Shown here piece after piece: positions 7,529-52,637 of a stretch of 64,000 nucleotides of DNA (positions are counted from its first letter, which is position 1; every line of letters starts with the position of its first letter). The translations under genes were made by a program, and so were the position numbers. The notes under the pieces are model-generated. The model was not told the origin of the DNA and did not search any database. It saw only the letters and a list, made by a program, of their open reading frames with translations. The stretch comes from Ophiura sarsii (taxonomy: Eukaryota > Echinodermata > Ophiuroidea > Amphilepidida > Ophiuridae): positions 57,518,580-57,582,579 of the forward strand of contig CM069454.1 of NCBI GenBank assembly GCA_035610835.1, given 5' to 3'.

Positions 7529-7747
7529 TGCCTTTATTGATGGAGGCTGTTTATCTGAGGAGTGTACCTTCAACCACAACTTTACCTCGCCTCAAATGAC
7601 CAAGATATTACGGAAGCATGACATAAATCCTTGGGACAATCAACACAACAAAGATTATCTCCTAAATCTTCTCAAACAGAAAAGTGAAAGTGAGCCAGAG
7701 AGAGACTTGAAGAAGGACTCGAAGAAGGATATCATCGCAAATGTAAC
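7529..7747 (+). CDS. Exon 1 (first recognised): N-terminal CCCH zinc finger, PARP12/ZAP-like
   Basis: Acceptor TTACTAG before 7529 and donor GTAAGT at 7748. The exon is 219 nt, entered and left in phase 2. It encodes the end of a CCCH finger (C-x4-C-x3-H, with the first Cys expected at the end of the preceding exon). A basic helical stretch with ILRKHDIN and LLNLLKQ then follows, resembling the region after the first finger of PARP12 and ZC3HAV1. A charged tail rich in Lys, Glu and Asp ends the exon. In that family such fingers bind RNA. The exon starts within a codon, so more coding sequence must lie upstream; I could not identify it. The assignment to the same gene rests on family order and phase match with exon 2 across a 14.7-kb gap. 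Confidence 0.72.
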
Positions 7748-7979
7748 GTAAGTCAACATTGTCTACAAGTCCAAGGAGAAAACAACCCCACTGTTCAACA
7801 GGGCCCGGCCGACCCATATATTCGTTGAAAAATATTTGTCTTTTGAACAAGTTGGAATTTTTTAATAACAAAATGACTAACCAACCGACCTACCTAAAAT
7901 GGTCTGAACATAATATGAAAAACAAAATCAGTTAGAGGGGGCAAGGGGGAAATCCACTTTTGAATTGTGTGATGCTAAT

Positions 7980-8785
7980 TTCGGTAAATAGTGATGGGGT
8001 CCGGAAATGAGTAACAGGAAAAAGTGACTCTTATGGAGCAGGTCGAAGCTGAAATAGGAAAATACCTGAAAAAAGAGTTTTGTTCTACAGGCTCGACCGA
8101 CTCAAAACAGAAACTAAACAAATGTAAACAATAAATTTAAAAAACAAACCATTTTAATAAAAAAAAGTGAAGAAAAACAGTTGGACATTTTGGATTTTTA
8201 GGTTGTTGTTGAAAATTCGCAAAACTTTCTAATAATAATAATTTAAAAAACCCCACCAAACTCATAACCTATACCTGAATGCTATACCTGAATTTCAATC
8301 GCTTTAAAGGCTATATCAGTTGATTTTTTTTCTCCAGAGGGGGCAATCTACTTTTTGGACAGGTATGAGTGTTGCCAATTTCGTTAAATAGTAAACTAGG
8401 CCCGGAAATGAGAAACAAGAAAACTGTGACTCTTATAGAACGGGCAGAAGCTGATATGGGAACATACCTGAAAAACCCTTCTGTTCTCACAGGCCGGACC
8501 GACTCAATCCAAACTAAACAATTTAGTGATTTTTTTAAAATAAAAAAAACCAAAACATTTAAAAAAAAATTAAAAACTAAAGTGATTATTTGTGGAACAA
8601 GTTGGACATTTTTGATTTTGTTCTACATTCACACACATTTCTAATGAAGAACATGGTGGGGATTTTCAGCGCTTCAGCAGGGCTGTCGCGCATGTTGGGG
8701 ATCCCATGTCACGAGCCCTCCACCCCGAACAAGAAAACTCGGACTCTTATAGAGTGGGCAGAAACTGAAATAGAAACATGAACTG
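7980..8785 (+). repeat. Three partial repeats after exon 1
   Basis: Copies near 7995-8105, 8395-8520 and 8725-8785 share GTGACTCTTATAGAACGGGC and ACATACCTGAAAAA. Similar wording (GCGGGCCCGACCGAC) recurs at 9460. No gene recognised. Confidence 0.6.
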
Positions 8786-9009
8786 TGTGAATTCACACAG
8801 GGATTCACACAGGGTCTTTGGAAACTGATTGACAATGGAAACATGTTCTTTTTGTTTAAGCCAGGCATATAAAGGGAGTCTCCAAAGAATAGAGGTGATT
8901 TGCACCAATTTTCATTCAATGCAAAGATAATGTTTATCATTATATCATTCTTTTGCTAAAAAAACATGAATTGAAATCATACAAAACTGTGCAAAATATC
9001 ACAGATTCA

Positions 9010-9811
9010 CAGGGTGAGTCAGAAAGTTAATAATATGGCAGGCTCCCCAATTTGAAAACCGATAATAGTGCTAATTTAAAAGACTACATATTTGGCTTTT
9101 ATTCATTGACCATTGCGTCATAATGTTACATAAATTTCAGAATCAGTAGAACCCGGTATTGCTAAACATATCCACAGGATGGCAATAACACATTGTTGAC
9201 TGGATGATTCAGAGATGCCAAACAATGAAATTTGTGAAAACTTTAAAAGATAATGAATGTTGGATACAAATAAACAAAAAAGAATAGAACTGATGAGTAA
9301 GAAAAACCCTGAGTTCAAGAAAGAAGTCCTGAAAAGAGGCATCTTAGGTGATTTAAGAAAGCGAGCCTCATAAGAATACATTGAAGAATGACTTGATACA
9401 TCCTGTGGATTGATTCTAAAATTGGGGCCCTTAGGCGACGAAAAAAGGAAACCCTGTTGAGCGGGCCCGACCGACACATTATTTTAGAAATTGAATTGAC
9501 CCAAAATTTCATTTTTGTTTGTCAAAAAATGGCAACATAATTTTAGGATTTTTACGGTCATTTTCAAGGAGAAAGCAAAGCACAACAACCAGACCCTACC
9601 TGAAAGGTTTATTTGCCCGTACAACTTGATTTCTTTTTTCGTTGCCTTACTATTAAGATTAGAGTTATTGTCGATTTGAAAATAATGTTTGTTGTTGAAA
9701 GAGTCCAATCAATGTTGGGCCTTTTAGCATAACCATTGGTTTTGAATATGCAGGACTAACATTTTTGTGACACCTTTGCTAAAAAATAACCATTATTTTT
9801 TACTCACCCTG
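9010..9811. mobile_element. MITE with CAGGGTGAGT / ACTCACCCTG ends, copy 1
   Basis: The interior (GAATCAGTAGAACCCGGTAT, ATCCACAGGATGGCAATAAC) is shared with copies at 13656-14151 and 21364-22261. No intact gene. Confidence 0.7.
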
Positions 9812-11058
9812 TATCTAAGAGTGGGGGAGGGGTTGGTGGAGGCCAGGCCCAGGGTTGCACAAAGTGCTGGAGCAGGGAGCACCGCTCCCGGGAAATAATG
9901 AGCAGAATTGGGGAAATAATGCCAAGTGGAAAAAGAAAAAGTATTGGGGAAAAGGGTGAAAAAAGATGAAGAGAAAAAAATGCAAACTTTGGGTTATGAG
10001 CTGTGGTTGCAGGTATACTAATGTGTTTATTGTTTTATTGCTTTCCCCAGTGGCAACGCTACAGGGGGCAAGGGGAGGGCATTTCCCCAAAAGATATTTT
10101 TGTGTCCCAACCCCCTCAAAAAATTCTATTTAGTTAAAATTTGAAAAAAATCGACAATTTTTGCATATAAAAGCAATTTTGTTTACGCTTTGCGCAGATT
10201 TTCCTACTAAATTAGACAAAATGTCACCATTTTAGCGTAAAATGCCACAAAAAAATGTAAAAAAAGAAATATAAAATTTGTCCGCGAAATACTGGTAATT
10301 ATGTTCAGTTATCTTTAATGTGCCATAATATGTTTTCTATCCATATTGGAGCTTCCGTTATCAAATTATGGCCAATTTATTCGGGCCTTTTCAAATTAAC
10401 CTTTAGCCATTGTGTGAAGAGAGCTCTTTTATTAGAATCGTCATTCATATCAGTGTGTAGTTGAACATCAATCAACAAAATCAATAATAATCTACCTACT
10501 AAATGTTGAAAGTTAGTCGAATTTAAACAAAAAACATATTTTCATCCATATTATCAAGATAAAACTATTAGAATTTTAAAAAATACATTGACATATTCTA
10601 AAATCATCATCGGAACTATAAAGGCAGGTTTTTTTCAGATGAAAGTCATGTTCTTGTTCAAAAGTGGCCAAAGTGGGATTCGCAGTCTGTCCGTAGTAAT
10701 GTTGTGAAATCAATGGGAAAAAGTGTATTTGATAGAGGATTGATAGAGCTTACCAACAGTCCGGTTTTTTAAAACAAAAAGACATGGGGTGTATTTGTAA
10801 TAAATGTTCTTACTCATGTTCAAACTTGTAACATACGTACGAACCCTCCCTATTCCTAATAATAAAGTGTTTAGAATAAACAGTATGTTCTCAGTGCCTG
10901 TTTCCAGACGGAAGGACATAATTGTCAATTGGTGTAATTGTCAATTTTTAAGATTTCTTTTTTGTTGTTGAAAGAAAGCCCAATCAATTATGGGCATATT
11001 TAGCATAGACCTACCATTAGTTTTGAATAAGAATGACAATTTTTTGTTTACTCACCTG

Positions 11059-11061
<3 letters not shown>

Positions 11062-11090
<29 letters not shown>
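11062..11090 (+). repeat. G homopolymer (29)
   Basis: The longest of a series of plus-strand G runs. Others: 12377-12394, 14169-14180, 15712-15725, 22284-22303, 26100-26118, 26138-26150, 32854-32879, 32881-32891, 47798-47814, 49803-49818, 61379-61390, 61392-61403. Confidence 0.95.
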
Positions 11091-11091
<1 letters not shown>

Positions 11092-11243
11092 GGGGCGTGA
11101 AGTGGAAGGCAAGGCCATAAAGAAAAATCACTTGGTTTTAAATAGAGTAGGGGTTACATTTAAGTTTATTTGTGACAGCTCAGAAAGAAATAACAATTAA
11201 CCCTTTTTATTTCAATTATATTCTAACTTTCCAACAAACCAAG

Positions 11244-11405
11244 CAAAGGGAATCAAAGGACGAGCGAACCTCAATTCAAATCGAAGCCAGGCACACCGAC
11301 TGCATGTAGTGATCGGGCAACTGATTCAGATTGTGATCCAAATGTCCGAAAAATCCCCAGCAGCAGTTTTCTGAATAACCGAGCCTTGATTAACCAAGCC
11401 TTAAG
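11244..11405 (+). other. Duplicated exon-2 copy A, open and phase 2-2, lacking CCCH/WWE1
   Basis: Same acceptor context (CCAACAAACCAAG) and donor (AG/GTAGGA) as exon 2. It is 162 nt with no stop in the shared frame. It keeps the SKPGT head and the CDPNV plus LINQ tail but lacks the finger, the WWE core and more of the linker. It could be an alternative exon giving a finger-less isoform, or a decaying duplicate. Confidence 0.5.
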
Positions 11406-11456
11406 GTAGGAGTGACAATCAATCTATGACATGTGCAATGTAGATTAGGTGACACA

Positions 11457-12105
11457 CAGGGTGTCTCACAAAAGTGTCACATGTGAAACATGATTTTTAT
11501 GTTCATGAGAAGGGAAATATAAAATTTGTCCGCGAAATACTGGTAATTATGTTCAGCTATCTTTAATGTGCCATAATATTTGTTTCTATCCATATTGGAG
11601 CTTCCGCTATCAAATTATGGCCAATTTAATCGGGCCTGTTCAAATTAACCTTTGGCCATTGTGTGAAGAGAGCTCTTTTATTATAATCGTCATTCATATC
11701 AGTGTGTAGTAAAACATAATCAATAATTAATAATCTACCTACTATATGTTGAAAGTTAGTCGAATTGAAACAAAAAACATATTTTCATCCATATTATCAA
11801 GATATACCATAAACTATTAGAATTTTAGAAGGTATTTAAACAATACATTGACATATTCTATATAAAATCATCATCGGAATCATAAAGGCACTTTTTTTCA
11901 GTTGAAAGTCATGTTCTTGTTCAAAAGTGGCCAAAGTGGGATTCGCACTCTGTCCGTAGTAATGTTATCAAATTCAACGGAAAAAAGTGTATTTGATAGA
12001 GGACTGATAGAGCTTACCAACAGTCCGGTTTTTTAAAACAAAAAGACATGGGGTGTATTTGTAATAAATGTTCTTACTCATGGGACACTTTTTTGATACA
12101 CCCTG
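11457..12105. mobile_element. MITE with CAGGGTGTCTCA / ACACCCTG ends, copy 1
   Basis: CAGGGTGTCTCACAAAAGTGTC is mirrored by GACACTTTTTTGATACACCCTG. Present in each tandem unit: also 12759-13362 and, diverged, 16048-16804. Confidence 0.65.
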
Positions 12106-12545
12106 TAAAGTTATTAGTCATATTGACCAAACTTGTAACACACGCACGAACCCTCCCCTATTCCTGATAATAAAGTGTTTAGAATAAACAGTATGTTCTC
12201 AGTGCCTGTTTCCAGACGGAAGGACATAATTGTCAATTGGTGTAATTGTCAATTTTTAAGATTTTTTTGTTGTTGTTGAAAGAAAGCACAATCAATTATG
12301 GGCATATTTAGCATAGACCTACCATTAGTTTTGAATAAGAATGACAATTTTTTGTTTACTCACCTGGGAGGGGGGAGGGGGGGGGGGGGGGGGGATGGGT
12401 GAAGTGGGAGGCAAGGCCATAAAGAAAAATCATTTGGTTTTAAATAGAGTAGGGGTTACATTTAAGTTTATTTGTGACAGCTCAGAAAGAAATAACAATT
12501 AACCCTTTTTATTTCAATTATATTCTAACTTTCCAACAAACCAAG

Positions 12546-12707
12546 CAAAGGGAATCAAAGGACGAGCGAACCTCAATTCAAATCGAAGCCAGGCACACCG
12601 ACTGCATGTAGTGATCGGGCAACTGATTCAGATTGTGATCCAAATGTCAGAAAAATCCCCAGCAGCAGTTTTCTGAGTAGCCGAGCCTTGATTAACCAAG
12701 CCTTAAG
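12546..12707 (+). other. Duplicated exon-2 copy B, open and phase 2-2, lacking CCCH/WWE1
   Basis: Nearly identical to copy A, from which it is separated by a roughly 1.3-kb tandem duplication. 162 nt, same splice signals, open in the same frame. A and B are clearly recent duplicates of one another. Confidence 0.5.
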
Positions 12708-12758
12708 GTAGGAGTGACAATCAATCTATGACATGTGCAATGTAGATTAGGTGACACA

Positions 12759-13362
12759 CAGGGTGTCTCACAAAAGTGTCACATGTGAAACATGATTTTT
12801 ATGTTTATGAGAAATATAAATTTGTCCGTGAAATACTGGTAATTATGTTCAGCTATCTTTAATGTGCCATAATATTTTTTTTCTATCCATATTGGAGCTT
12901 CCGCTATCAAATTATGGCCAATTTATTCAGGCCAGTTCAAATTCACCCTTGGCCATTGTGTGAAGAGAGCTCTTTTATTAGAATCGTCATTCATATCAGT
13001 GTATGATTGAACACAATCAACAAAATCAATAATAATCTACCTACTAAATGTTGAAAGTTAGTCGAATTAAAAATTTAAAAAAATCATCCGTATTATCAAG
13101 ATATACCATAAACTATTAGAATTTAAAAAAATACATTAACATATTCTAAAATCATCAGCGGAATTATAAAGGCAGTTTTTTCAGTTGAAAGTCATGTTCT
13201 TGTTCAAAAGTGGCCAAAGTGGGATTCGCACTCTGTCCGTATAGTAATGTAGTGAAATTCGATGGGAAAATGTGTATTTGATAGAGGACTGATAAGGCTT
13301 ACCTTATTTGTGTATTTGTAATTAATTTTCTTACTCATGGGACACTTTTTTGATACACCCTG
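12759..13362. mobile_element. MITE with CAGGGTGTCTCA ends, copy 2
   Basis: Same ends and interior as the copy at 11457. Confidence 0.65.
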
Positions 13363-13490
13363 TAAAGTTATTAGTCATATTGACCAAACTTGCAACACAC
13401 GTACAAACCCTCCCCTATTCCTGATAATAAAGTGTTTAGAATAAACAGTATGTTCTCAGTGCCTGTTTCCAGACGGAAGGACATGATGTG
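12813..13490 (+). repeat. Third, partial tandem unit
   Basis: Follows the 1.3-kb unit to GTTTCCAGACGGAAGGACAT, then turns into sequence like that before 9010. It carries no exon copy. Confidence 0.8.
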
Positions 13491-13655
13491 GACCTATATA
13501 GAAGTTACCTGACAACAGAGGCTGGTGTTGCAAAGATAATTTGTATCATGAACTGTTAAATAGGATTATATCTTAAGATTATTATGATCATTCTTTTGCC
13601 AAAAAGGCATGAATTGAAGTCATACACAACTTTACAAAATATCACTGAATCACTA

Positions 13656-14151
13656 CAGGGTGAGTCAGAAAGAACAAGCTTCTTTTCAAGTAAAAACGCC
13701 ATACTATTATAGGGCAGGCTCGCAAATTCAAAATCGATAATAGTGCTAATTTAAAAGACTACATATTTGGCTTTCATTCATTGACTTGCGTCATAATGTT
13801 TACATACATTTTAGAATCAGTAGAACCCGGTATTGTTAAGCATATCCACAGGATGGCAATAACACATTGATGGATGGATGATTCAGAGATGCCAAACATT
13901 GAAATTGGCGAAAAACTTTAAAAGACAATGAATGTTGGATACAAAATTACAAAAAAAAAGAGAATAGAACTGATGAGTAAGAAAAACCCTGAATTCAAGA
14001 AAGAAATCCTGAAAAGAGACATCTTAGGTGGTTTAAGAAAGCAAGCCTCATAAAATACACCATTGGCATAACCATTGGCTTTGAATATGCAGGACTAACT
14101 TTTTTGTGACACCTTTGCGAAAAAAAATAACCATTTTTTTTACTCACCCTG
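13656..14151. mobile_element. MITE with CAGGGTGAGT ends, copy 2
   Basis: Internally deleted relative to copy 1; ends conserved. Confidence 0.68.
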
Positions 14152-14257
14152 TATCTAAAAGTGGGGGTGGGGGGGGGGGGTGGAGGCCATTTCATGAAGA
14201 TAAAATCACTTGGTTTTGAATAGAGTAGGGGTTACAAAAGATTGGGGATACATTTAA

Positions 14258-14848: not shown

Positions 14849-14950
14849 AATAAGTTTATTTGTGACAGCTCAGAAAGAAATTAACCCACGAAATGAAAAG
14901 TAACCCTTTTTTTTAATTTCAATTACATTTTAACTTTCCAACAAACCAAG

Positions 14951-15160
14951 CAATGGGAATCCAATGACGAGCAAACCTCAATTCAAGTCGAAGCCAGGCA
15001 CACCGACTGCATGTAGTGATCGGGCAACGAACAACAACCAAGAACTATCTGATGAAAATCAGCGGCAGGAATTGGATCAGACGAGCAACAGAACTGTAGA
15101 GGCTTCAAACTGTGATGTCAGCGAAATCTTCAAATTACTTGAAATAAATAGAACTGATGA
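14951..15160 (+). other. Duplicated exon-2 copy C, open and phase 2-2, lacking CCCH/WWE1
   Basis: Acceptor CCAACAAACCAAG; 210 nt open. It keeps the Asn/Gln linker, then passes directly to LDQTSNRTVEA, skipping exactly the 41 codons that carry the finger and the first WWE strands in exon 2. After SNCDVS the sequence changes to that found elsewhere as non-coding repeat (near 9285 and 13965). A GTAAGA donor there happens to keep phase 2. Confidence 0.45.
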
Positions 15161-17391: not shown

Positions 17392-18269
17392 CTAGTACTT
17401 GTTGTAAAACTTAACAGGCCCATGGAAGTGGAATTGGTGCACCGTAGATGTGGCCACTGAATTCTGTATGTTGAATTCACTCAGCATGCTCAAAAACATC
17501 TGCTCTTGAGAATTTGAAAGACCATTATTGTCTGTTGAGACTGTTACGGCTTGAGTTGGATGCTCTACAACTACTATGGCTTGCTCTTCTATGTTTTCTT
17601 TTATTTGAGCTGCAATGATGGAACTCATCATCTTTTTTCCTTGTAGCTTGTTCGAGAATAATGTTTAAGTGACGACTCTGATTTATGGCCTGTAATAGAC
17701 ATGATGTGTCTACTCTCACTGACGGCAGTTGCCCGTAGACACTGGTTTGTGTATTTGGTCGTGCAGCCAGCTTTCTCAGCGATTACCTTCATTTTATTCC
17801 CTAACGTATTGATTCCTTGAGGAGACTGTGTATACCACGGTGAACCATCTGTTGGAGTTTTGGGTTTTGGTCGCTGCCACACACACTCTTGGTTGGGATT
17901 TAGTGCATCCTTGAACGCAAGAAAAGAAGCAACTGGGCATTTGGGAGATCCATGGATTTCATACATGTGGCCACTGTAAGATTCATCGTCGTGTTCACGC
18001 ATGCATTTGGTTAGCATATCACCATGATCACTGTAACGGAGATTCTGCTCGTCGACACAAACTTCGAAGTCAGAAATTTCCATAGTGCGAAGGTTTTCCC
18101 TTTTTCGGTTGGCAAAGTAAATCATGATATCGAGGAAGACTTTATCTTGGAGGCCTTGTGGTGTTGTTGTTGTGTCTAAAGAATCCAAAATCTTAGCCAT
18201 GTCCTTCTCGCTCACTTGCTTCTTGTGCACTATTGCTCCCTTTCCCTCTTGCTTCAGCTTGACCATCAT
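17392..18269 (-). pseudogene. Crypton-type tyrosine recombinase (DUF3504-like), C-terminal half, frameshifted
   Basis: Two minus-strand frames overlap by a few bases at 17628-17631. The longer one (17628-18269) carries the recombinase domain. It has the first catalytic Arg in RKRENLR, the C-terminal box with CLRATAV, and ITGHKSESSLKHYSR with the late His and the Tyr nucleophile. The shorter one (17392-17631) encodes the usual tail ending in FHGPVKFYNKY. The domain is related to vertebrate ZMYM/QRICH1 proteins derived from Cryptons. Three faults are visible: Gln stands where the H-x-x-R box normally has His (TNQCLR), about ten residues are missing between SES and RHIM, and the frame breaks before the tail. 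The N-terminal half is absent; the sequence beyond 18269 enters an inverted repeat. It is a dead element, or less likely a remnant domesticated gene. Confidence 0.8.
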
Positions 18270-18270
18270 C

Positions 18271-19640
18271 GCTTTGTACGAGAGTCGTTCAATAAATAAT
18301 GAAAGTGATCATGGTATGGGATGCATGAGTGATGATCAATACAAAGTATGAACCTTTGTCTTTCAAACAATACACTTTTGGATTGTTAGATACCTTTGGT
18401 TATGTAACGTCATTAACATAAACACAATAGGTTTCAGACACTGACTGAAATTTGTTAATTATTTGGCTGGATATGTAATATGTTGAATATGGGTTGATTG
18501 ATACATTTGCGTATATCTCGGCAATGCAAGCATAAAAACAGATAACACTTGGCACATAGTTAGAACACACACTTATCTCTGTTTGACACTCTGAATTCTT
18601 AATACAAACAAAAAGGGATCATCTCAAATACGCTTTTATTTAGCAAAATCCGCAATAATATAGCTTAGAAAACAACAAAGGATAAAGAACAATGGAGGAA
18701 TTATAATTTAGTAAATTGTTGTGGGATGTAAAGCAATAATAGTGAGGATTTCAAGAGGAGCTGTTCATAAAATTTCCTCAAACCATTGAAATCATGTGAC
18801 GATTACTTTAACAATACATATCTAGTAGCTCTAAAGATAACAGTAATAAGAGAGGTTGTGGCAGCCATCTTTGATTGAAACATTCATGTATATCTTCAAT
18901 TTGACTATCACAATATTTATACACATTGCTTTAAGCATTTTTCATTATTTCTGATTAGAATTTGAACACACAGTAAGCTATTATCTGGTAAATTTCATGA
19001 TTTTAACCATTTTTGGCCCAGTTCAAAATGATCTGCCGTCTGCGCATGCGCATATTTTCTGCAGGTTTCATGCGAATAAGTTCAGATAATTGGTTAGCTA
19101 TCATATGGAATCTCCCAAACTGGTTAATTGCTTGGATTTTTCCTAAATTGTTTGATTTTCCGCAATATTAGTGATTCGCTGACTTTGCATTTTTCAATGA
19201 AATTGGCCATTTGAAATATTGATATTTGTATATTTTTATTTAATTGCCTCTCCTTACTTTTCCCCTTTATACTACATATATCAAATTACATTAAAGTTAT
19301 AGGGATTAAAGTTATTGTCTTTTTTATCATACTTACGCGAAAATTATTGGATTTACCTGCTTCTGGTGTCATGTTATGCAATCTTCTTACCACAATGTTT
19401 TATACAAACAATTCAAATTTACCGCCAAATAACTGATTTAGCAGTGTCCCAAGTGTACTTACTTTGAGACAATGCTATGACGTCATAGTTCACACTTATA
19501 AATCCAAAACTGTATTGTTTGAAAGACAAAGGTTCATACTTTGTATTGATCACACTATCCCTCAATAGAATTACTCATGCATCCCATACCATGATCACTT
19601 TCATAACTTACTGACTGACCCTCGTATGTTTCGAAGTCAT
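18271..19640. repeat. Inverted repeat pair, arms of about 110-135 bases
   Basis: Arms at 18271-18385 and 19505-19640 share CATGATCACTTTCAT, CATGCATCCCATACC and GACAAAGGTTCATACTTTG in opposite directions, with about 24 extra bases in the right arm. The left arm starts where the recombinase frame begins. The spacer is AT-rich and shows no gene. Confidence 0.7.
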
Positions 19641-22465: not shown

Positions 22466-22774
22466 CGAAGGGAGTCCAAGGACAGGAGTACGTCAATGCA
22501 AATCGAAGCCAGGCACACGGATTGCAATAACGATCAACAACCAAGGACCATCTGATAAAAATCAGCAGCTGGAATTGTGCATTAACTACGTCAAATATGG
22601 TCAATGCAAAAATGCCGAAGACTGTTCTCAACTTCATGAATCCGAGCTACCGTTTCAATGGCAGGTTCGCCGCAATAATACTAGTAGATGGGTATATCTG
22701 GATCAGATGAACAACACAGATGTAGAGGCTAAATATTGCGATCCTAATGTCGACAGACTCATGATTAATCAAAG
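22466..22774 (+). CDS. Exon 2: CCCH zinc finger and first half of WWE1
   Basis: Acceptor AATCAAG before 22466 and donor AG/GTAGGA at 22775; 309 nt, phase 2 in and 2 out. After a Gln/Asn-rich linker it encodes a complete CCCH finger at 22578-22637 with spacing C-x8-C-x5-C-x3-H. The WWE core follows at once: FQWQV, then RWVYLDQM and VEAKYCDPN, which match the strands and helix of the WWE domain after the last finger of PARP12-like proteins. WWE domains bind ADP-ribose units, so finger plus WWE suggests combined RNA and ADP-ribose recognition. This is the only one of five related exon copies in the window that keeps the finger. It sits next to MITEs with CAGGGTGA ends on both sides (21364-22261 and 22821-23477). 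Confidence 0.86.
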
Positions 22775-26375: not shown

Positions 26376-26577
26376 CGACGAATATGGAGATTACGAGCAC
26401 AGTCAGTTGTTGAAGGATTTAACAATTTCCAGATTTTGTATCGGAAATGACATCTTCCGACGCCTGAGTACTATGCCAACGGTACAATGTTTATCCCCCG
26501 GGTTAAAATCGTTCTGCACTGAATGGCTGTGGTATTGGCAAGATGTGAATGGAACATGGATAGAGTATGCTCAGAAG
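26376..26577 (+). CDS. Exon 3: end of WWE1 and start of WWE2
   Basis: A good polypyrimidine tract and TTGCAG acceptor precede 26376; donor AAG/GTAATT at 26578. 202 nt, entered in phase 2 and left in phase 0. The first part, with FRRLSTMPTV, matches the end of the first WWE of PARP12-like proteins. The last part, EWLWYWQDVNGTWIEY, is the opening strand pair of the second WWE, with both signature Trp residues. The split of each WWE across exon borders, and the continuity with exons 2 and 4, supports the model. This exon lies between a foldback MITE (25085-25754) plus a G-rich repeat (25920-26295) upstream and LINE-rich intron 3 downstream. Confidence 0.88.
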
Positions 26578-29784: not shown

Positions 29785-30306
29785 CAGTCTTGTATTTTTT
29801 TCAGCCAGGTCCGCAATGAACCATTATATACCCTGCTCAAATTCGTTACAGCGTCAAACGATCTTTACAGATCAGTGACCGCACTACTGTGCATTAGACT
29901 TTTGTAGTCTGTAGTAGACAAGGGGCAGTCTCTACGTTATTTCCATTGGTCAAGGGGCAGTCCTTTGGAGGTTCTATTAGAACCAAATTTATATATAGTA
30001 GGCCAGTGGCAACCTACGTGTTCAGTGGAAGCGGCAATCCATCTGAACGGCTCTTTTCAGAGCCACCAATTCTTTCACAAGTAGGAAAGGGCACCTACTC
30101 TCAAATCATCGACAAGGGGCAGCCCAAATGATGATAACAAGAGAAGTGGCAATCTCTATGTTTTGTTCAATATTATAATAATTTGGTCCTGAAGAAGTCA
30201 GCTAATCCTGACGAAAGCTTGACAGATTAAAACTCGTCCGACGGCGAACCCGTTAAACTTTTAACTTATATTATGAATACCCGTCGTAAAAGCCTATCTC
30301 ACAATT
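29083..30306 (+). mobile_element. Penelope-like element, 5' truncated, nested in the LINE with 10-bp target duplication
   Basis: The host LINE sequence AGAGAACAAC is present on both sides (29073-29082 and 30307-30316), marking the insertion exactly. The coding part (to 29784) has the end of the RT (AKNSVANTLV, ALNKNGYPSKLV) followed by a GIY-YIG endonuclease: CIPCSCGEQYIGQTKRPLKVR with SEH, and the distal Glu in VREALEIRI, the arrangement of Penelope-like elements. The frame is open for this whole portion. The 29785-30306 tail is non-coding and includes CCTGAAGAAGTCAGC and CTGACGAAAGC. Confidence 0.85.
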
Positions 30307-31487
30307 AGAGAACAACTATATTGACAAATCTGTTCAAAAGGGCTTCATGGAGAAAATATCAGGCTGTGTTGAACACACAGAAGCCCTTACAGAAATGCTT
30401 CAAGATGCCAAAAAGAATGGCAAGCCAATCGTGACAACTTGGTTAGATTTACAGAACGTGTATGGAAGTGTACCACATAACCTCATACAATTTGCCTTGG
30501 AATGGTACTATGTGCCGGAACACATCAGAAAGATTATCTTCAACTATTACGATGAAGTGTTCATCTGTGTGAAAACAGAGAAGTGGACAACAGACTGGAT
30601 ACAATGCTTTATTGGAGTATTTAAAGGCTGTCCGCTATCATCCATTCTATTTCTAGCCGTTTTCAATCTATGTCTGGATCTACTCGACCAATCTGATCAT
30701 CTTGGATATCGCATGAGTAATTCCAACATTGTGTCTTCAGCTAAAGCATATGCCGACGACCTTACACTGGTTGCCAGAAACACAGAAGGTCGTCAACGAC
30801 TCATAAATACCACCAACGAATTCCTCAAATGGTCAAGAACCATGAAAGCCAAGCCTGTTAAATGTAAATCTCATGCCATGAAGAAAGTGGTTCCGAATGC
30901 AGACCAGAAGCGAAGAGGCCATAAAACACAATATATAGCCTACGACCCACAACTGGTAATTGACGGACAGAAAATCAATCACATATATCCCCAGCCAACC
31001 AATGAGATTCCTTGGGAAGTTAATCTATGAAGACCTGAAGGATGATAAGATCAGACAAATGGTTACCAGCAAGTTGTCTGCTATGTTGGAGTTAACAGAT
31101 ACAAGCGAATTGAATGGTATCATGAAAATGTGGATCTACAATCATGTGATCATCCCAAAAATGGTATGGGAATTTACCATCTACAACTTCCCAATCACCT
31201 ATATTGAGAAACTGGAGGCAACCTGCACAAAACATCTGAAGAGATGGGCAGGAGTAACCAGAAGCACTACCAACAGTGCTTTATACAGATCCAGAAAACG
31301 CTACGGCCTACAACTAAAGCGACTCACCACCTCGGTGAAATGTATGCAGGTAACCAAATACCATCTCAATAAGCACCCCAGAGAAAACTCAAACACTATA
31401 CCGAGAGTGTTTAGAGTCGAAAAAGACGAGGTCCAGATGGAATGGAGTAAAGGAGCTGGAACAAAAAGAACGACATCTCATCCGTAA
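30307..31487 (+). pseudogene. LINE reverse transcriptase palm and thumb, frameshifted
   Basis: Two overlapping frames (to 31030, and 30960-31487) cover the palm with DLQNVYGSVPH, FKGCPLSSILF and YADDLTLV, and then the thumb with MRFLGKLI. The LGK motif follows the frame change, so a one-base change near 31000 broke the gene. The source element belongs to the group with WLDL-YGSVPH and GC-EHT motifs. Confidence 0.82.
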
Positions 31488-32248: not shown

Positions 32249-32452
32249 TCTACTTTAGAGAGGGCCTATGAGGATTATCTGACAGGACATGGTGATAAGA
32301 TGTTCCCATTCTCCACCCATGAGAACAACTACCAACTCAACTTTGAAACCATGCAGCAACAAAATGTCTATTACAAGACACATAGGAGTGTGCGCAGAAG
32401 ACCAAAGTTTCAGACTCATAGTGCGTCTGACATGCCTGATCGAATGCAGCTT
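32249..32452 (+). CDS. Exon 4: second half of WWE2
   Basis: Acceptor TTTTCAG before 32249 and donor CTT/GTAAGG at 32453; 204 nt, phase 0 both ends. It starts with LERAYEDYL, the WWE helix. It continues with MFPF, YQLNFETMQQQN and the basic VRRRPKF end that is typical of WWE domains in PARP12-like enzymes. With exon 3 it completes WWE2, which in relatives binds ADP-ribose or PAR ends. The exon lies only about 200 bases after the stop codon of a decayed same-strand LINE (28850-32042), so intron 3 contains almost the whole LINE and its nested Penelope-like insertion. Confidence 0.88.
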
Positions 32453-32955
32453 GTAAGGTACTGTATCATCATCAAGCTATTTCTCATACAGGTATTAACC
32501 AAGAGAACTAAGTATACATTTCTGAAATCAATGTGAGTATTATGTACATGTAATACTACTGGGCATCCTTGCTTCATGCTGGACCCACTAGAATATTATT
32601 AGCGAGGGAGGTGAGTAATCCGGGTAATTTGGAATAAACAAGAATATTGTCTTTAAATATCAGGTACATACGGTGCCCTTTATATAATGTAAGTGACAGG
32701 GTGCCTTTAATCATGTTAATACACCATATGGCTTAGGCCAAATGTGCTTTTAAATGATACCTAGATGTTCCTATCTATTATTAAAGTACTCCATGTGTTC
32801 TTAATATACCCAGGTGCCTCACATGGCTAGACCCTACCAAGGGCGACCCCAGAGGGGGGGGGGGGGGGGGGGGGGGGGGTGGGGGGGGGGGTGTGGGGGG
32901 GGTCCTCATTCATCAAATCTGTCGGCAAAATTATGGTGCTGTGGGCAAATCAAAG

Positions 32956-34000: not shown

Positions 34001-34064
34001 GTCATGGTTATTTGTGCTCAAACTTAATTTTTTCTAACTTTCCTCTTTTTACATCAGGCATCAG

Positions 34065-34282
34065 AAATCCCAAGATAGTTCTAATATGGACATTTTCCCG
34101 AAAACGTGGGTTATGAAAGGCATGCAGACAAGCTCGGAGCCCAAGTTGATCCGTCTCCACTCAAAGGAGGAGGAATACCTAACAGTGGAGAAGATGTTCA
34201 TGGACGATGCTTGGAAGGACGATGTGAACATACTGGCTGTAAAACGTGTGCAGAATGTGGAATTGTGGGAAGATTTGTATAG
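34065..34282 (+). CDS. Exon 5: start of PARP catalytic (ADP-ribosyltransferase) domain
   Basis: Two AG acceptors lie 7 bases apart, after 34057 and after 34064. Only the second fits phase 0 from exon 4 without a stop. The donor is AG/GTCAGT at 34283, leaving in phase 2. The product contains TWVMKG, then EEYLTVEKMF and VKRVQNVELWEDLYR. This is the start of the PARP fold in PARP12-like enzymes, where the RIQN-LW motif precedes the NAD-binding strand. The last codon is split: AG here plus A at the start of exon 6 gives Arg. The 15.9-kb intron that follows holds foldbacks, a DIRS relic and LINE fragments, yet no piece of the catalytic domain appears to be missing. Confidence 0.88.
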
Positions 34283-44715: not shown

Positions 44716-44732
44716 CGCCCCCGGCTGAACTC

Positions 44733-44772
<40 letters not shown>

Positions 44773-44789: not shown

Positions 44790-46409
44790 GATTATTTACT
44801 AGGCTGTTTTGGTTTGTCATGTTCACCCGTACACTTCCCCGTACACTTTCTTGCAAAGTCGGGCATCGTTTTTTCTTAAATGTTGCTTGCATATTGCCTT
44901 TGCTGTCGCCTTTAATACATGTGCTGTCACTTGAACTTGGAACCAACGTTTAATTTGAACTGTCTATTTTCAATAAAAAAATACTCCAATACGGGAAAAA
45001 AATCAGAAAAGCTCACAGACAACAAATAAGAACATCATTTTACTCGACCTAGAATTTCAATCAACGGATTTTAATCATCGGCAAAACCCGATGATGTGAG
45101 TGACGTCATTTAATGAGCTCATTAGCATAATTTATGTCCGTGAAATATACAATAGGGTTTTGGTAGTGCTATGGGGGAAGTCCTTCGTTACACGCTCGGT
45201 TTGACACGCTCGGGACGTAAATACAACGCAAGCACAATGCTTCGCCCTTTAGGGTCTTATATAACACAAATTACAAATACAAGTTATAGTCCGGGGACTC
45301 GGAGTAAGTTCAAAAAGTGAAATAATGAATGTATTGGACAATAAAAATTAGGATGCCAATTTGTAGGCATAATTCCAAAAGTACCAAATCTACGGCGTGA
45401 CAGATCGCCATAAAATATTACGCCAAAATAAATTTCTCCGGTGCTGTTTGCGCACATATTTCGGCCCTAAATCATAAAAAATAAAGGCCCACGTTAACCA
45501 GTACAACTTCAATATAATATTAAACTAGAAATAGGCAAAATCGTAAAATATTCCGTATTTGATCGCGGTTAAAACGTCTTTTTCCGTATGCACAGAAATT
45601 GCGAAGTCCAAACCCGGAAGTAAACTAACTGTTGTTCCTAATACACTTTCGCTGGTGCTTCAGTGATCAATACCAATTTACCCGGGCTATTTACCGCACA
45701 GTGAAAACTTACACAATCACACATTTCTCACAATTAATTCAAAAATAATATTACATAAAAAGCTGATCTTTACGGGTTAGTACAAAGAGATGTTGCGCCA
45801 CGGGGAATTCCCAGGTATCGAATCCCCACCGTGTACAGCGCACGGTTCAATGCAGCTGAATTTACGTACGCAACCTCTTCATGCACTCATTGGGCTAATT
45901 TGGCTAAATCACTCACAAAGGCAACACGGAACAAAACGGCTGTGAGTGACGGAGTGACGGAGTGACGGAGTCAGTCACATTTGCTCACATAGGCTGATCT
46001 ATACGACCAGCAAACATATTTGGTGTTGTAGTAAGTCCGTGTATTATTATTAAATTAGAAGAGATGTCTGTAAACTGGGAATCTAAAATGAACTCTATAG
46101 AAAAGGCAATCAGATCATGGACGACAAGAAATCTGTCAATGGTGGGTAAAATACAAATAGTAAAAAGTATTTTGGCATCTAAATTCTCGTATATAGGTTC
46201 AATAACAGACTTACCCCATGTGTTTATAAGCCGAATAAATAGAGAATTTTTCAAATTTGCTCAGAAAAAGTAAAAAGATCAACGTTATCTAATGATTATG
46301 GAAATGGTGGGCTACACAATGCTGAACTTTATGCATTTTTAGATTCGTTAAAAATGTTTTGGTTAAAAAACCTGATATCTCCAGAAAAAGATACATGGAC
46401 CATTATTCC

Positions 46410-46440
46410 CCTTCAGTACCTGAGAGTCCACACCCCCCTT
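46410..46440. mobile_element. TTAA-type MITE, right end only
   Basis: GTACCTGAGAGTCCACACCC followed by CCTTAAG equals the right end of the family, here cutting the LINE frame. Confidence 0.6.
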
Positions 46441-46652
46441 AAGCGAAACACATTTGGGTCTCAATATTTTAAAATGCAACTGTTCTATAGATAGAATTGT
46501 ATGCATAGACAAATGTTTTCAGATAGTATGAACGAATTGTTTAAAGATATATACATGTAAGTTATCCTTGTTTTATAGTAATTTGATTAAGACTTGGTTT
46601 TTGACACAATGTTCCCAGAACATAAAGGGTTCAACAAAAGAAAGTATACTTC

Positions 46653-47055
46653 TTAAAGGGACATTAAGTGGTGTTGAAAAGTTTAAATGTTTAAAAATTT
46701 ACTTCAGAATTCAAGATGAACATTAAAAATCGCCATTATTGTTGTTTCTACTAACAAAAAACACAGCAAAACTTAAAACAATATCATCGCTATTTATTGA
46801 AAAACGCCCTCTATGCAAATATGGTTCGCGTTATGTATCACGCGTACTGCACGGGGATACTGTCGGACGTAAAATGCTGGTCCCGCGGGACCAGCATGTT
46901 TTGAATCGACGTTTTCTGGTACAAAGAGAGCTGATTTTTCTTAATCCTTATAGGTGTAAGTTCATACATGTAATACAATTATAAAAATAAACGAATCTCA
47001 GTTTTTATCATAATTGAGGGCGCTGCCTCCAACACATCTCTTAGTGTCCCTTTAA
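46653..47055. mobile_element. TTAAAGGGACA MITE copy 1 with perfect central hairpin
   Basis: Ends TTAAAGGGACATTAAG and CTTAGTGTCCCTTTAA. A perfect 24-base palindrome (ATGCTGGTCC-CGCG-GGACCAGCAT) is at 46874-46897. It is inserted in a copy of the GGGTTCAACAAAAG foldback family, whose other pieces flank it (46625-46650 and 47060-47270). Confidence 0.78.
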
Positions 47056-47289
47056 CATTCAATTTTTGTTTTGGACCAAACAGGCTAGATAGGCATTTAG
47101 ATGAATCTTTTAGGCATAATTTGATACAAAATTTGCCCCCTAACAACAAAGATAAACCATGATTAGCACCATTTAAAGAAAATTAGTCAATTTTCAAAAG
47201 TTCAAAAAAATTGAATGTGACTCAAAATGACATACCGTAAACAAAGTGGTATACTTTCTATTGTTGAACCCTTAATCATGTTAATGACC

Positions 47290-49018
47290 CCTCACATGTA
47301 TCCGTGTGAGCTGGGCGGCCCCTTACCGTGTGAAAAAGGGGTGCGGACGGCGGCACACACGGTGGGCCGTTTCCCATCCGTTGAACACGTTGCGGGGACT
47401 TTGCCGGCCACCGGAGTTTTGAACTTGCTCAAAACTCCTGGCGGGTGAGTAAAAGCGGCGGCGAACGATGAAAGCCCGGTATAAGGACGGCGCACCCGTT
47501 TCGCGCCCGTTCGCAGGGCGGTGATGGACGGTGGTACGTGGACGTCGACCATCTTAGCGACGGGCTGCGAACGGCCGCATTATGTAGCCTGGTAACCGTT
47601 CGCGGAACGGACTCTCGGCAGGCATGTTGTATTATAGAATTCAGGGCGTAGCAAGGTATAAAAAAGTGGGTGACCATTTAGGTTGAAAACTGTAAAGGTT
47701 TTTGAGCTGGTCAGTCCGACGTACCAACAAAAAAATAATAAAAGGTAGCCCCAATTGTGTTTGCATTCACCTCGTTAATTTCAGGTAAGAGGAGGGTGGG
47801 GGGGGGGGGGGGGGTCAAACAAATTCGCACGGTCAAACAAAATCGCACGGTTGTGCAGTGCCCCCTCAGAATTGGTATTGGTGCGATTTGGTGTGTAATT
47901 TTACCAATATTTTATTCAAAAGCAATCACTTTCCCCCGTTTCTTCTTTTATTCCCCTTCTTCTTTTTTCCTTTCTATGCAAAAAAGTGGGGGCGGCCATG
48001 GCTGCCCCTGCCGCCCCGGTTGCGACGCGCCTGTATAGATGTTGGTCGTACGAATTCCGGAATGCAAATGAAGCGGCGCGAGCTTGAGCGCTCAGCTTAA
48101 AAAGGGCGGTTTGATGATGTAATCAAGACGTTTCGGCCGGTACCCAGGCGTTCCGACCGGTTAGGAACCGGTATGGAGGTGGTATGCACACGGTGAGGAC
48201 ACGGTGAGAACGGTAAGCTAGAACTGTATGAGGCTGGTGATCCCGAGACAAGGCCGGTGAGAACCCGGTAGTACAGACCCGGTGTAGAACGGTATGGACT
48301 GAGGACCCGGTGAGGAGGTATTATGCACCCGGTGAGAACGGTAAGCTAGAAATGTAAGGACGGTGAGCCCGGTGAGGACCCATTTTTTACTGATTGTTTG
48401 GACTCGGTTGTTTTTCTATTAGACGGTAAGGTGGCCGCCTACCAATACCGCCCTGCGAACGGGCGCGGAACGGGTGCGCCATCTTTATACCGTCCTCAAA
48501 CCGGGCTCTCACCGTTTGCCGCCGCTTTTACTCACCCGGCAGGAGTTTTGAGAACGGTCAAACTTCCTGCCGGGCGCGGATGGCCGGCAATGTCCCCGGC
48601 AACGTGTTCAACGGACGGGAAACGGCCCATCGTGTGACATCACCGTGTGCCGTCTGCACCAATTTGTCACACGGTAATGGGCCGGCCAGCTCACACGGAT
48701 ACATGTGAGTAATACAGAGATTCCCGGAATGTGAGTGAAGCGGCGAGCTTGAGCGCTCAGCTTATACAGGGCAGTTTGATGACGTTATCAAGGCGGTTCG
48801 GTCGGTACCCAAGCGTTTCGGCCGGTGAGGACCTGGTGAGGAGGTGGTATGAGCCCGGTTCCAGGCCGATAAGGACCCGGTATAGAACAGTATGAGCCCG
48901 GTGACAAAAAAAAATCAATGCGGCCGTTGACATTTTTTGCTGATTGTTCACCGTGTTGGACTCTGTTGTTTTTCTATAAGACGGTAAGGGGCCGCCTAGC
49001 TCACACGGATACATATGA
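47290..49018. mobile_element. GC-rich foldback element inserted in the LINE
   Basis: The left arm starts CTCACATGTATCCGTGTGAGCT at about 47291. The reverse complement stands near 48700, with a further diverged end near 49010 (CTCACACGGATACATATGAG). The arms share TTTTACTCACC, AACGGGCGCGGAACGGG or its reverse, and an inner CTCCTG hairpin. The centre (48130-48400) has degenerate CGGTGAGGACCCGGTA units, partly repeated at 48800-48910. GC content is far above the neighbourhood. Confidence 0.68.
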
Positions 49019-50188
49019 GGGGCCCATTAGATCAAGTAGAAACGTGGGACAATCATGTGATTTGGAATAATGAATGTATAACTAGTAGAGGTAAAACATG
49101 AATTTTAAGAAATGGGCAAAGAAGGGTATAATGTACGTCTCAGATTTGTATAACCAAAATAGAAAGTTTAAGTCAATGGAGGAGCTGAAATGTCATTTTA
49201 AAAATGATGGTAGTTTTGTGTTGAAATACATAGCTTTAAGACAAGTAATGCCACATACGTCTGTACGTGGAAATCATCGACAGATTCTGTAAACAATATA
49301 TATACAGTTTAATTATGGAGAAGACTGTGTTAAATTAAGAAAATGTACAATAAAACTGTACAGAATAACAATGCAGTCACAGATATCATTAGATGTCAAA
49401 GTTTCTGGGAAAATGAGCTTGAAAATATAAATTTTGATTGATCCATTATTTGGAAAAAACTTGTTCAAGATATCAAAGAACCACGACTAAAAACATAAAG
49501 TGGAAAATCATTAGCTGTCAGCAACAAAAGTATTTCTTAAGAAAATAAAGAAGGAAGAAAATAATATCTGTGAAACTTGTAACGAAATAGATTATATTGA
49601 ACATTTCTGTTATACATGTAGCTGTAAGAAAATCAAAATAATATGGAAAGAGACTGAAAGAATACTTTTGCAACAGTATAACCTAGACATAAATATAATG
49701 CAAAAAGATCCATTGTTTGGCTACCATGATGATAAAGAAAGTTAATATCGGGGAGTGACTTTGTCCTCAAAAATGTTCCGACGGGGATATTTCAGTGGGG
49801 GTGGGGGGGGGGGGGGGGAGGAGGGGGGTAGGGGGAGTGACGTTGTCCTCAAAAATGCACCGACGGGGATATTTCAGGGGTACGCCACTGAAGTGAGTTG
49901 TAGTCATAATTTGGAAAACTTCGATTTAAAATGGTCTAGTGTCCTTTGATGTGTTCACTTGCATACAGGTTATAGTTAACAGCGCTCGTATACATTTGAA
50001 GAATTGTCCCAGAGAATTGTATTGCGAAATATGACCTCAACTAGTCAAATTATGCGCAAGGCCTTACAATTTCTGTAATGTGCCCATGGAGGTAGGACGG
50101 GATATTGCCTCGACTGAGATCCGTGGTCTATGATCACAGCTATATCTAGTAATTTCTGTGTTTGTTTTTGTTTTGACTTTTGTCACAG

Positions 50189-52637
50189 AAAAAGAGAAAA
50201 GATGAAAAGAAAGAGTAAACATGTGCTAGAAAAACAACTATGGCACGGCACAAAGCGAGACAGCTCCGAGGCGATATGTCGGCAAAACTTTGATTTCCGT
50301 ACCAGCGGCTCTAACGTGGGGACTCTTTATGGTCAAGGTAGCTATTTCCATTGCAAGGCTTTCTACTCCAACTCATACACCACGCTGGAGAGAAAAGTCC
50401 GCAGGATGTTCCTTGTTCGAGTCCTGGTAGGATCGTACGTCACAGGTACTCGTGATATGAAGCGTCCTCCGCCAAAAGATCCGTACAAACCACTCGGGGA
50501 TCTTCATGACTCGTGCGTCGATGACGACAGCAATCCATCGATCTTTGTTATATTTGAGACAAGTCAGGTCTACCCGGAGTATCTTATCGAGTACAGCAAT
50601 TCATCGGATCGCGCATCATCTATTGCACCCCGAGCAGCTTCTCGCTGGATTACCAAAATGACTTCCCGCCAAGCCAGTTCACACTCTCACTATCGATCAC
50701 GTCCAAGATCGATTGCCTATGCACCCGATTCAAGCTTAGCAAATGCTTTTGCGATTCCCCATGGAGACTTTACGGTGAGTAAACTCTCTCTATCACGTCC
50801 AAGATCGATTGCCTATGCACCCGATTCACACTTTGTAAATGATCTAGAGACTCCCCAAGGAGTCTCTGCGAGTAGTCCAGGATCGATTGCCTATGCACCC
50901 AATTCAAGCTTTGCAAATTCACGCTTTGGCAATGCTCAAGCGACTCCCCAAGGCGGCTCTGCGAGTAGACACTCTCTATCACGTCGCCACGTTGCCTATG
51001 CATCCAATTCACGCTTTGCAACTTCACGCTCTGCAAATGCTCTTGTGATTCCTCAAGGAACTTTTGCGAGTAGACACTCTCTATCACGTCCAAGATCGAT
51101 TCCCTATGCACCCGATTCACACTTTGCAAATGCACCACCAAAACATGTCATTTATACTCGGTCAAAGTACATTGACAACGAAGGCGGTGAGGTAAACTTG
51201 GAAGATTTGGACATGTCTATAAAAATCCCACAAAATGCGCTGGCTGCCCCTGGCGTTATATCTCTTACTGTAGATACAAATGAACCCCATCCGCCGTTTC
51301 AAGATAATCAACTGGTTCTCGGACCAGTGATATCTTGTGAACCGGATGGACAGAACTTCCATAAGCCTGTCACAATCGCTGTGCCCCATTCGGGTATAAA
51401 TATCACAAAGGCACGTCTGCAGGTGTGGTGCAAGACAAAGAGCAGATCATCGTCAGTATCACGATGGGAAAAAGTGTTTGATGGTTCCGATGATAAACAG
51501 AATGGTGACCCCCGGGTCATAGTCGATGGAAATAAAATCAAGATTCGAGTGCGACATTTCTCCCTCTATGATTTCCTGACAGTTCCGGTAGAAATGGTAA
51601 GGAACTTACTTTATCCCGAATTACAGCTTGACATATTGGCATATATGTATCCTGTCACTACTATTGCTGCAAGTGACGCTGTTCTATTAAGGGTATACGC
51701 CTTGAAAACCAAAGACGATGCCAACAAAAAATTAGTAAAAGAGGCAGAAAATGACGATGAAGAAAGCGGTATGTGTACCAGACCGTCATCCTTTCCAGTG
51801 AGGCCCAACGGAAACAGTCTGATGGTGTGTGCTAAGCATATTTTTCCAGAGGAAAAATGGATCCCGGTTGGTGGTTTGATTGGGAATATTTCTCATCATA
51901 ATATACAGACAGGGGGAGTAGGTGCAAGATGCGAGATTACATTCAGGCAGAATGATAGAAAAGAACACGCAAATACATTTGATGGGGCTTTTGATCTGAA
52001 GCAAGACGGCAATCATAATACAGTTGACGGAATTAATTTCCTTGATAGCATGGCCAAACAAGACAATGCTAAGGCAAGAAGGGTCAAACAACAAGAGATA
52101 ATTGCGCAGCAAGAACAGCTTCAAAATGAAGAGGTAGGTGCAGCACAGTGGCACCACGCAAATCAGAAACGTCCGGGCATTAATGGGGAAAATGGGAAAT
52201 TATCTTGTAGCCCCGGAAGCGGTGCTATCCCACGTACACGTAGGCCTACTCCGGGTAAACGCGATACAAAATTGCAAAAAGAAATACCGTTGCTATCACC
52301 TTGCATTTTAGTCGTAGTTGAGGACAGCACTACAACTACAACAACCTCGCTGACCAAATCCCAAAGCGATTGGGGACCATTCCTCAAACGAGTGGCTAGA
52401 GATATCTTACAAAGATGGCAAGAAATAGCAGCATTGCTTCACTTCACACCTGAAGAATGTCAGGCATTTATCAGCCCCAACATGCCGGAGTGGTGGGCAG
52501 CATACACAATGTTAGAAACATGGAGACGTAAATTGCCCGAATGTGATCCTGAACAATTGCAAAACATACTAGCGGATGCCATTCGTCCTTTTGATGAGAG
52601 TTTGGCGAACAGGATTGCAGTACAGACGCTACAGTGA
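50189..52637 (+). CDS. Exon 6 (last): PARP core - tandem-repeat linker - ZU5 - UPA - death domain
   Basis: Acceptor TTGTCACAG before 50189; open to TGA at 52635-52637 (816 codons). Numbered within the open frame that begins at 50130, residues run as follows. 20-155 complete the PARP catalytic domain: NAD-site His39 in LWHGT, Tyr72 in YGQGSYF, and a last strand YPEYLIEY as in mono-ADP-ribosyltransferases; whether a Glu fills the third catalytic position needs alignment. 188-335 are five Ser/Arg-rich repeats. 345-486 are ZU5 (YIDNEGGEVNL, IKIPQNAL, VISCEPDG) ending in HFS at 476-478. About 490-635 are UPA. About 635-746 are a charged, low-complexity linker with a short Thr run. 747-830 are a death domain with RWQEIAALL and MLETW. 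ZU5-UPA-DD is the signalling end of PIDD and UNC5 proteins. No intron separates the enzyme from it. Confidence 0.92.
50691..51134 (+). repeat. In-frame coding tandem repeat, five units, between PARP and ZU5
   Basis: Five diverged units of about 28-36 residues repeat the core SRPRSIAYAPDS-x-FANA followed by PQG and AS. Unit cores start near 50691, 50792, 50873, 50971 and 51084. Units differ in length by whole codons and the frame stays open. The segment is rich in Ser, Arg and Pro with no predicted fold, so it looks like a flexible linker with many possible Ser phosphorylation sites of RxxS type. The nucleotide repeat is clear (TCACGTCCAAGATCGATTGC recurs), so slippage or unequal exchange may change its length between alleles. 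Confidence 0.85.
51555..51563 (+). other. His-Phe-Ser motif at the end of ZU5, candidate autoproteolysis site
   Basis: CAT TTC TCC encodes HFS within VRHFSLYDF at the end of the ZU5 domain. In PIDD and UNC5CL the same tripeptide at the same place in ZU5 is the self-cleavage site between Phe and Ser. Cleavage here would separate the PARP part from UPA-death. The motif is seen directly; cleavage is inference from the families. Confidence 0.6.

Follow-up and report, generated by a model that had tools for sequence, protein, structure and literature searches.

In a stretch of 64,000 nucleotides from the brittle star Ophiura sarsii (assembly GCA_035610835.1, contig CM069454.1, positions 57,518,580 to 57,582,579; hereafter the window, numbered from its first nucleotide), a single open exon was found to encode the C-terminal half of a PARP12-type ADP-ribosyltransferase domain, from its catalytic histidine onward, and behind it ZU5 and the predicted UPA and death domains. 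An open frame of 839 codons runs on the + strand from 50118 to 52637. The coding part of this exon, exon F, begins at 50189 directly after the acceptor tttgtcacag and closes with the stop codon TGA at 52635-52637, and its one frame holds, in order, the C-terminal half of PARP, a linker, ZU5, the predicted UPA, a linker, the predicted death domain and the stop. An earlier sequence-only reading of the window had proposed an exon open from the PARP catalytic histidine through ZU5, UPA and death domain, with five upstream exons adding a CCCH finger and two WWE domains; both proposals were borne out, the six predicted exons chaining through GT/AG sites with phases that agree at all five junctions (2, 2, 0, 2 and 2 from A to F) to give 1203 amino acids. 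The fusion of PARP to ZU5 in one open exon is a confirmed observation, and the CCCH and WWE exons would be joined to its front by splicing. The features are as follows.

7529 to 7747, + strand: exon A, an internal exon that carries the latter part of a CCCH finger together with an N-terminal segment resembling ZAP/PARP12 (acceptor ttactag; donor gtaagt after AAC)
22466 to 22774, + strand: exon B, opening part of WWE_4 preceded by a CCCH finger (phases, Pfam, and a match to Amphiura P0006 at 31% identity)
26376 to 26577, + strand: exon C, end of the first WWE and start of the second (62% identity over 60 amino acids to Amphiura P0006; in phase 2, out phase 0)
32249 to 32457, + strand: exon D, remainder of the second WWE (51% identity to Amphiura P0006; Pfam WWE, E 7e-11)
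34058 to 34282, + strand: exon E, N-terminal half of the PARP domain (..NILAVKRVQNVELWEDLYR) (48% identity to Amphiura P0006; Pfam)
50189 to 52637, + strand: exon F, C-terminal half of PARP to the stop (open frame, Pfam, acceptor; PARP part 65% identical to Amphiura P0006)
50244 to 50252, + strand: HGT, with the histidine of the PARP H-Y-I triad (alignment to PARP12, 2pqf)
50337 to 50348, + strand: GSYF, with the tyrosine of the triad (alignment to PARP12, 2pqf)
50538 to 50555, + strand: SIFVIF, with isoleucine at the third position of the triad, the residue also found there in PARP12 (alignment to 2pqf; triad table of PMC9149570)
50607 to 51140, + strand: Ser/Arg-rich linker of 178 codons with in-frame repeats, of period 105 nucleotides at 50875-51135 (sequence analysis)
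51141 to 51581, + strand: ZU5 domain
51555 to 51563, + strand: HFS at the end of ZU5, predicted autoproteolysis site between F and S (F aligned to UNC5B residue 677)
51618 to 52049, + strand: predicted UPA domain
52368 to 52628, + strand: predicted death domain
52685 to 52690, + strand: AATAAA, starting 48 nucleotides after the stop codon ends (motif scan)

PARP and ZU5 in a single frame

Within the exon F frame Pfam detected PARP, without the first part of the domain, at E 7.2e-16, and ZU5 at E 1.5e-11, each passing its cut-off; as both lie in one frame, the possibility that ZU5 is a frame artefact was rejected. The PARP match rose to 4.6e-20 once exon E was joined, and in the first 530 amino acids of the joined model it was accompanied by the two WWE domains of the predicted exons (WWE_4, E 3e-6; WWE, E 7e-11), all above cut-off. 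The CCCH finger of exon B fell just under the cut-off (zf-CCCH, E 0.0014), and part of another finger lies in exon A. NACHT was absent from the Pfam results of exon F and of the same 530 residues.

PARP12-type enzymes belong to a family linked with defence against viruses. The nearest relatives of the PARP half are P0007, at 75% identity, and P0006 of Amphiura filiformis, at 65%. Its best match in the PDB is PARP12 (2pqf, E 1.2e-33), with HGT, GSYF and SIFVIF all aligned. The isoleucine of SIFVIF that we take to be the third triad residue was chosen by this alignment together with general knowledge of the family. The active PARP12 and the inactive PARP13 differ in the triad table of PMC9149570, where the former is given as H-Y-I and the latter is listed with its histidine changed; the window PARP has H-Y-I as in PARP12, not as in PARP13, and its active site looks intact by sequence.

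The linker between PARP and ZU5 stayed open in 6 of 5000 dinucleotide shuffles and none of 894 linker-length placements in the neighbouring intron was open, so that chance is an unlikely reason for its openness, on figures that its repeats make somewhat too favourable. That result bears on the explanation that two genes, one PARP12-like and one encoding ZU5-UPA-death domain, stand head to tail, the joined frame being due to joining during assembly, to a rare allele or to a read-through not expressed in that form. Such an arrangement appears quite improbable: the joint does fall in a repeat linker, where assemblies and alleles can err, and three protein searches found PARP joined to ZU5 in no second genome, but the linker is open against chance, its repeats hold one frame, the only run of N (58730-58829) lies 6 kb away, downstream, and a polyadenylation signal is absent between the two domains. 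In a scan of 50101-53400 for AATAAA or ATTAAA, none was found between PARP and ZU5, and the signals present start at 51531 (inside ZU5), 52685, 53307 and 53337.

The three protein searches, which are of limited reach, gave 32, 5 and 119 matches, or 153 different proteins, the second having scored the 7985 candidates that shared most words. PF00644 and PF00791 occurred together in none of the 153, and when the ZU5-UPA part was compared with the whole set by phmmer, it matched the ten known ZU5 proteins and no PARP protein. Nor was PARP12 found together with ZU5 in any paper of the open-licence library searched, subscription papers and preprint servers lying outside that search; its papers on brittle-star immune genomes and on NACHT-ZU5 in sea urchin added nothing. 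The statement of the sequence-only reading that it knew of no protein joining the two has held within this reach.

The tail and its predicted cleavage site

Weak Pfam matches to UPA were listed for the relatives P0003 (E 0.0014) and P0004 (E 0.12), and matches to Death for four of P0001-P0005 (E 0.001-0.1) and for P0036 (E 0.00029); neither domain was listed by Pfam for P0033-P0035 and P0037. A profile built from the window and ten tail relatives matched the ZU5-UPA of UNC5B at E 4.2e-11 and, weakly, the death domain of RIPK1 (E 0.0088). The best rows of a structure search with the AlphaFold2 model include ankyrin ZU5, NLRP1 UPA and the death domains of ankyrin-G and TNFR1; CARD8 (7jn7_B) and the NLRP1 FIIND were matched by the structure search, yet not by the profile searches. 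By this model the tail is predicted to fold like the ZU5-UPA-death domain end of cell-death proteins. The domain order originally proposed, CCCH, two WWE, PARP, ZU5, UPA and death domain, appears right, with PARP, ZU5 and WWE detected by Pfam and with UPA and death domain, which have no Pfam match in the window's own frame, supported by the AlphaFold2 model and, at weak scores, by the relatives.

NACHT stands in front of ZU5 in four of the ten tail relatives (P0033, P0034, P0035 and P0037), and the two from Amphiura filiformis, P0033 and P0034, carry DUF4559, three ubiquitin-like repeats and NACHT ahead of the tail. The tail alignment reaches the death domain in eight of the ten (not in P0002 and P0037), three of the four NACHT proteins among them. 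In the ZU5-UPA tree the window pairs with P0002 (100/99), whose record is one short open frame that covers no front part, and the NACHT four, which have 40-49% identity to the window's cassette, are set apart (99/97). A cassette taken straight from NACHT genes was rejected, as the tree places the window with P0002. Because the same family ends brittle-star NACHT proteins, the ZU5-UPA-death domain end looks like a shared signalling cassette rather than a borrowing from PIDD or UNC5, and the window appears by sequence to hold one branch of that family. The link to PIDD and UNC5 first drawn for the tail is reframed in this sense: its domain order was right, and the tail family is found also behind NACHT in Amphiura. 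In their own right, P0033 and P0034 present a brittle-star NLR-like receptor of about 1.5 thousand amino acids with built-in ubiquitin-like repeats and a ZU5-UPA-death-domain-type end.

In the known autoproteolytic ZU5-UPA proteins described in PMC3210808 and PMC8081665 the two halves stay together and the C-terminal half signals. PIDD is cleaved between F and S of HFS after each ZU5, and Phe-296 of the bond cut in CARD8 corresponds to Leu-677 of UNC5B (PMC3210808); the autocleavage of NLRP1 is reported to require a further histidine, H942 in rat (PMC8081665). The last ZU5 strand of the window reads IRVRHFSLYDF, and the profile alignment places the F of its HFS on Leu 137 of UNC5B chain 3g5b, which is residue 677 (the hand-derived offset of 540 agrees with two landmarks given in PMC3210808, His624 and the Cys663-Cys670 pair). 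Across the window and its ten relatives, this place holds F in 11 of 11 rows, with S (3) or T (8) next to it in all of them and H in 10 of 11; the histidine equivalent to UNC5B H624 and CARD8 H252 is kept in every row. Autocleavage between F and S of HFS is, on the sequence, likely but not established.

UNC5B and the ankyrins, beside which UNC5CL belongs as a ZU5-UPA(-death domain) comparison, are, like UNC5CL, receptors or scaffolds. The best sequence and fold matches of the tail are to UNC5B and ankyrins, and a counterpart of the NLRP1 catalytic histidine was not seen at residues 84-138 of the fragment, where it was sought without a direct alignment. Both points would suit an uncut scaffold, a ZU5-UPA-death domain held closed as in UNC5B or ankyrin, which undergoes no autoproteolysis and places PARP at an adaptor or at the cytoskeleton. 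We consider this unlikely, since F followed by S or T stands at the cleavage place in all 11 rows and the window has HFS as in PIDD, with FS where UNC5B has LG.

A candidate self-cleaving immune sensor

The reading we favour, with somewhat less than even confidence, is that this PARP12-type protein with ZU5 and a predicted UPA-death domain is a self-cleaving immune sensor that frees its UPA-death domain piece to signal. It builds on the single open exon with PARP and ZU5, on HFS in the autocleavage place and on the like end behind NACHT in relatives; the UPA and death domain folds enter as predictions of the model, and the splicing and all functional steps are what we infer from these. Splicing would put the CCCH and WWE exons ahead of exon F, and the CCCH/WWE part may bind foreign RNA or ADP-ribose. 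The H-Y-I site would mono-ADP-ribosylate the protein itself or its targets, and ZU5 would cut itself between F and S of HFS, with the two halves remaining associated. Upon infection the N-terminal half might be removed, for example by ADP-ribose-driven degradation, and the freed UPA-death domain would assemble and recruit death-domain adaptors. RNA sensing, as the sequence-only reading had supposed, might in this way be coupled to signalling to caspases.

The ends of the PARP relatives bear on what such a tail may have replaced. A PARP motif pattern was matched by 140 of the 153 retrieved proteins, the 13 unmatched being the ten ZU5 proteins and P0105, P0145 and P0152. Cysteine at -4, making a CaaX-like box, was found in 57 of these 140, a non-independent set in which isoforms, incomplete records and some PARP10/14/15-like proteins are counted; at the other places from -1 to -20 cysteine occurred at most 5 times, except for 16 at -1. 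The 57 include Ptychodera, a hemichordate, with CVVM. Where tails extend more than 40 residues beyond the last YPEY-like motif, cysteine stands at -4 in 29 of 34, as in Amphiura (CILQ), Acanthaster (CSIQ), Haliotis (CTIM) and Ostrea (CTVQ). According to PMC8568172, ZAP-L is farnesylated at a CaaX pattern and PARP12 is said to be without a CaaX box. The long tail of the window gene runs into ZU5-UPA-death domain where many relatives have a CaaX-like box, and this comparison suggests that a signalling end has taken the place of a lipid anchor; with the cassette there, an effector once bound to membranes would have become one that signals. As a separate observation, many PARP12-like proteins, from echinoderms and a hemichordate to molluscs and vertebrates (P0006, P0021, P0023, P0026, P0038 and others), have CaaX-like ends, and prenylation may be old in the PARP12-like family.

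A bolder form of the sensor reading, which we hold to be possible but doubtful, is a PARP inflammasome. An antiviral PARP12 would have swapped its CaaX anchor tail for the self-cleaving ZU5-UPA-death domain shared with NACHT receptors. On sensing RNA or ADP-ribose it would ADP-ribosylate itself, its front half would be degraded, and a UPA-death domain nucleator of death signals would be freed directly, which would make the protein a PARP counterpart of NLRP1 and CARD8.

Several observations weigh against the sensor reading. In the exon F frame Pfam matches neither UPA nor death domain up to an E of 1, and no histidine was found at residues 84-138 of the fragment, the place at which a counterpart of NLRP1 H942 or CARD8 H270 was sought without a direct alignment to NLRP1 or CARD8. 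To the repeats that flatter the openness figures of the linker may be added one opposite-strand frame, which is also open for 125 codons across it. As for the exchange of tails, the echinoderm proteins P0008, P0009, P0010 and P0016 end where PARP ends, with no tail, and P0007 carries KKCVIQ inside its frame.

The protein could also be an effector rather than a sensor, a reading we regard as rather unlikely: NACHT-ZU5-UPA-death domain proteins would sense, the PARP protein would be recruited through its matching UPA-death domain, and mono-ADP-ribosylation would be the alarm output. Known ZU5-UPA proteins have their sensor N-terminally, which counts against it, as does the position of the window cassette outside the NACHT clade, paired with P0002 (100/99) and at 40-49% identity to the NACHT four (99/97). 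In its favour are the same ZU5-UPA family behind NACHT in four relatives (two of them Amphiura filiformis; three aligned through the death domain), a PARP active site that looks intact, and the combination of a constant death-fold part with a variable effector described for TRADD-N proteins of marine invertebrates in PMC8195603. The sensor and effector readings both predict a death-domain assembly.

Compared with known systems, the predicted protein shares a candidate CCCH finger, two WWE domains and PARP with PARP12 and PARP13/ZAP (ZC3HAV1), with H-Y-I as in PARP12; unlike that family, in which 57 of the 140 PARP relatives end CaaX-like, it carries a ZU5-UPA that none of the 140 matches. P0033 and P0034 of Amphiura filiformis have the same ZU5-UPA-death domain family, at 40-41% identity over the whole end and with HFT at the cleavage place, whereas their front is a NACHT ATPase with ubiquitin-like repeats, not CCCH-WWE-PARP. 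PIDD1 shares the ZU5-UPA-death domain order and the HFS sequence, as described in PMC3210808; unlike in PIDD1, here PARP stands ahead of the tail and ZU5 is single. In NLRP1 and CARD8 (FIIND-CARD) a ZU5-UPA with F and S closing ZU5 is likewise described, and the predicted UPA fold of the window matches the NLRP1 FIIND; they end in CARD, in contrast to the death domain here, and in the window no counterpart of their catalytic histidine was found, with no direct alignment made. Fusions of oysters (DED-TRADD-N with PARP14-like domains) and cnidarians (TRADD-N with macro and PARP), described in PMC8195603 together with TRADD-N with UPA-ZU5, also unite a death-fold adaptor and an ADP-ribosyltransferase in one protein, so that such a joining is not wholly new. 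There DED or TRADD-N stands ahead of KH, RRM, macro and PARP14-like domains, and no CCCH-WWE-PARP12 followed by ZU5-UPA-death domain is among the fusions described in that source. CCCH-WWE-PARP12 with a C-terminal ZU5-UPA-death domain is a new combination as far as the searches reach. Of the undescribed immune system once suggested for this locus, the domain order was met nowhere else within these searches, and the pairing of death folds with PARP had already been described in oysters and cnidarians.

Were the sensor reading true, an ADP-ribosyltransferase of the ZAP/PARP12 class would itself be a cell-death or inflammatory receptor, and RNA or ADP-ribose sensing would be wired directly to death-domain signalling, a wiring that to our knowledge is found in no vertebrate protein. 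ZU5-UPA-death domain would then be a portable signalling cassette, used behind NACHT and PARP alike, and it would become simple to test whether the C-terminal tail, CaaX anchor or signalling module, sets the function of a PARP12-like protein.

Upstream exons and surrounding sequence

In tblastn, P0006 matched exons B, C, D and E in order and then exon F to the end of PARP. P0006 holds two CCCH/WWE sets by alignment and four WWE stretches by Pfam; as it has two sets, exon B best fits the first and exons C and D the second. Exon A was placed by phase and by a weak match to the Asterias PARP12-like protein P0008 (28% identity, E 0.001). Because its finger enters cut by an intron, with the first cysteine upstream, 5' exons and the start codon would lie outside the exons found. 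Nothing was placed before 7400 by tblastn of the 32 PARP relatives on the window (details inspected for six queries), and further match bins of these relatives are 11000, 12200, 32800, 42200 and 49600.

Tandem copies of the exon B region hold two exon-like stretches of 162 nucleotides, at 11244-11405 and 12546-12707 (+ strand), and similar copies are found around 14951 and 15859. The stretches have the same acceptor as well as a donor, and their phases are symmetrical (2-2), so that they could enter the same mRNA; the CCCH-WWE part is missing from them. Transposon remains lie between the exons, namely a reverse transcriptase (RVT_1, E 2.8e-13) and a DUF3504/phage-integrase-like frame below cut-off (E 0.005) (30290-31030, +; 17628-18308, -). 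The window's only gap, 100 N at 58730-58829, falls within an opposite-strand open frame at 58689-59054. Upstream of exon A, at 4702-5379 (+), a tandem array reads as NSSTRQLV repeats and is likely a satellite rather than a gene.

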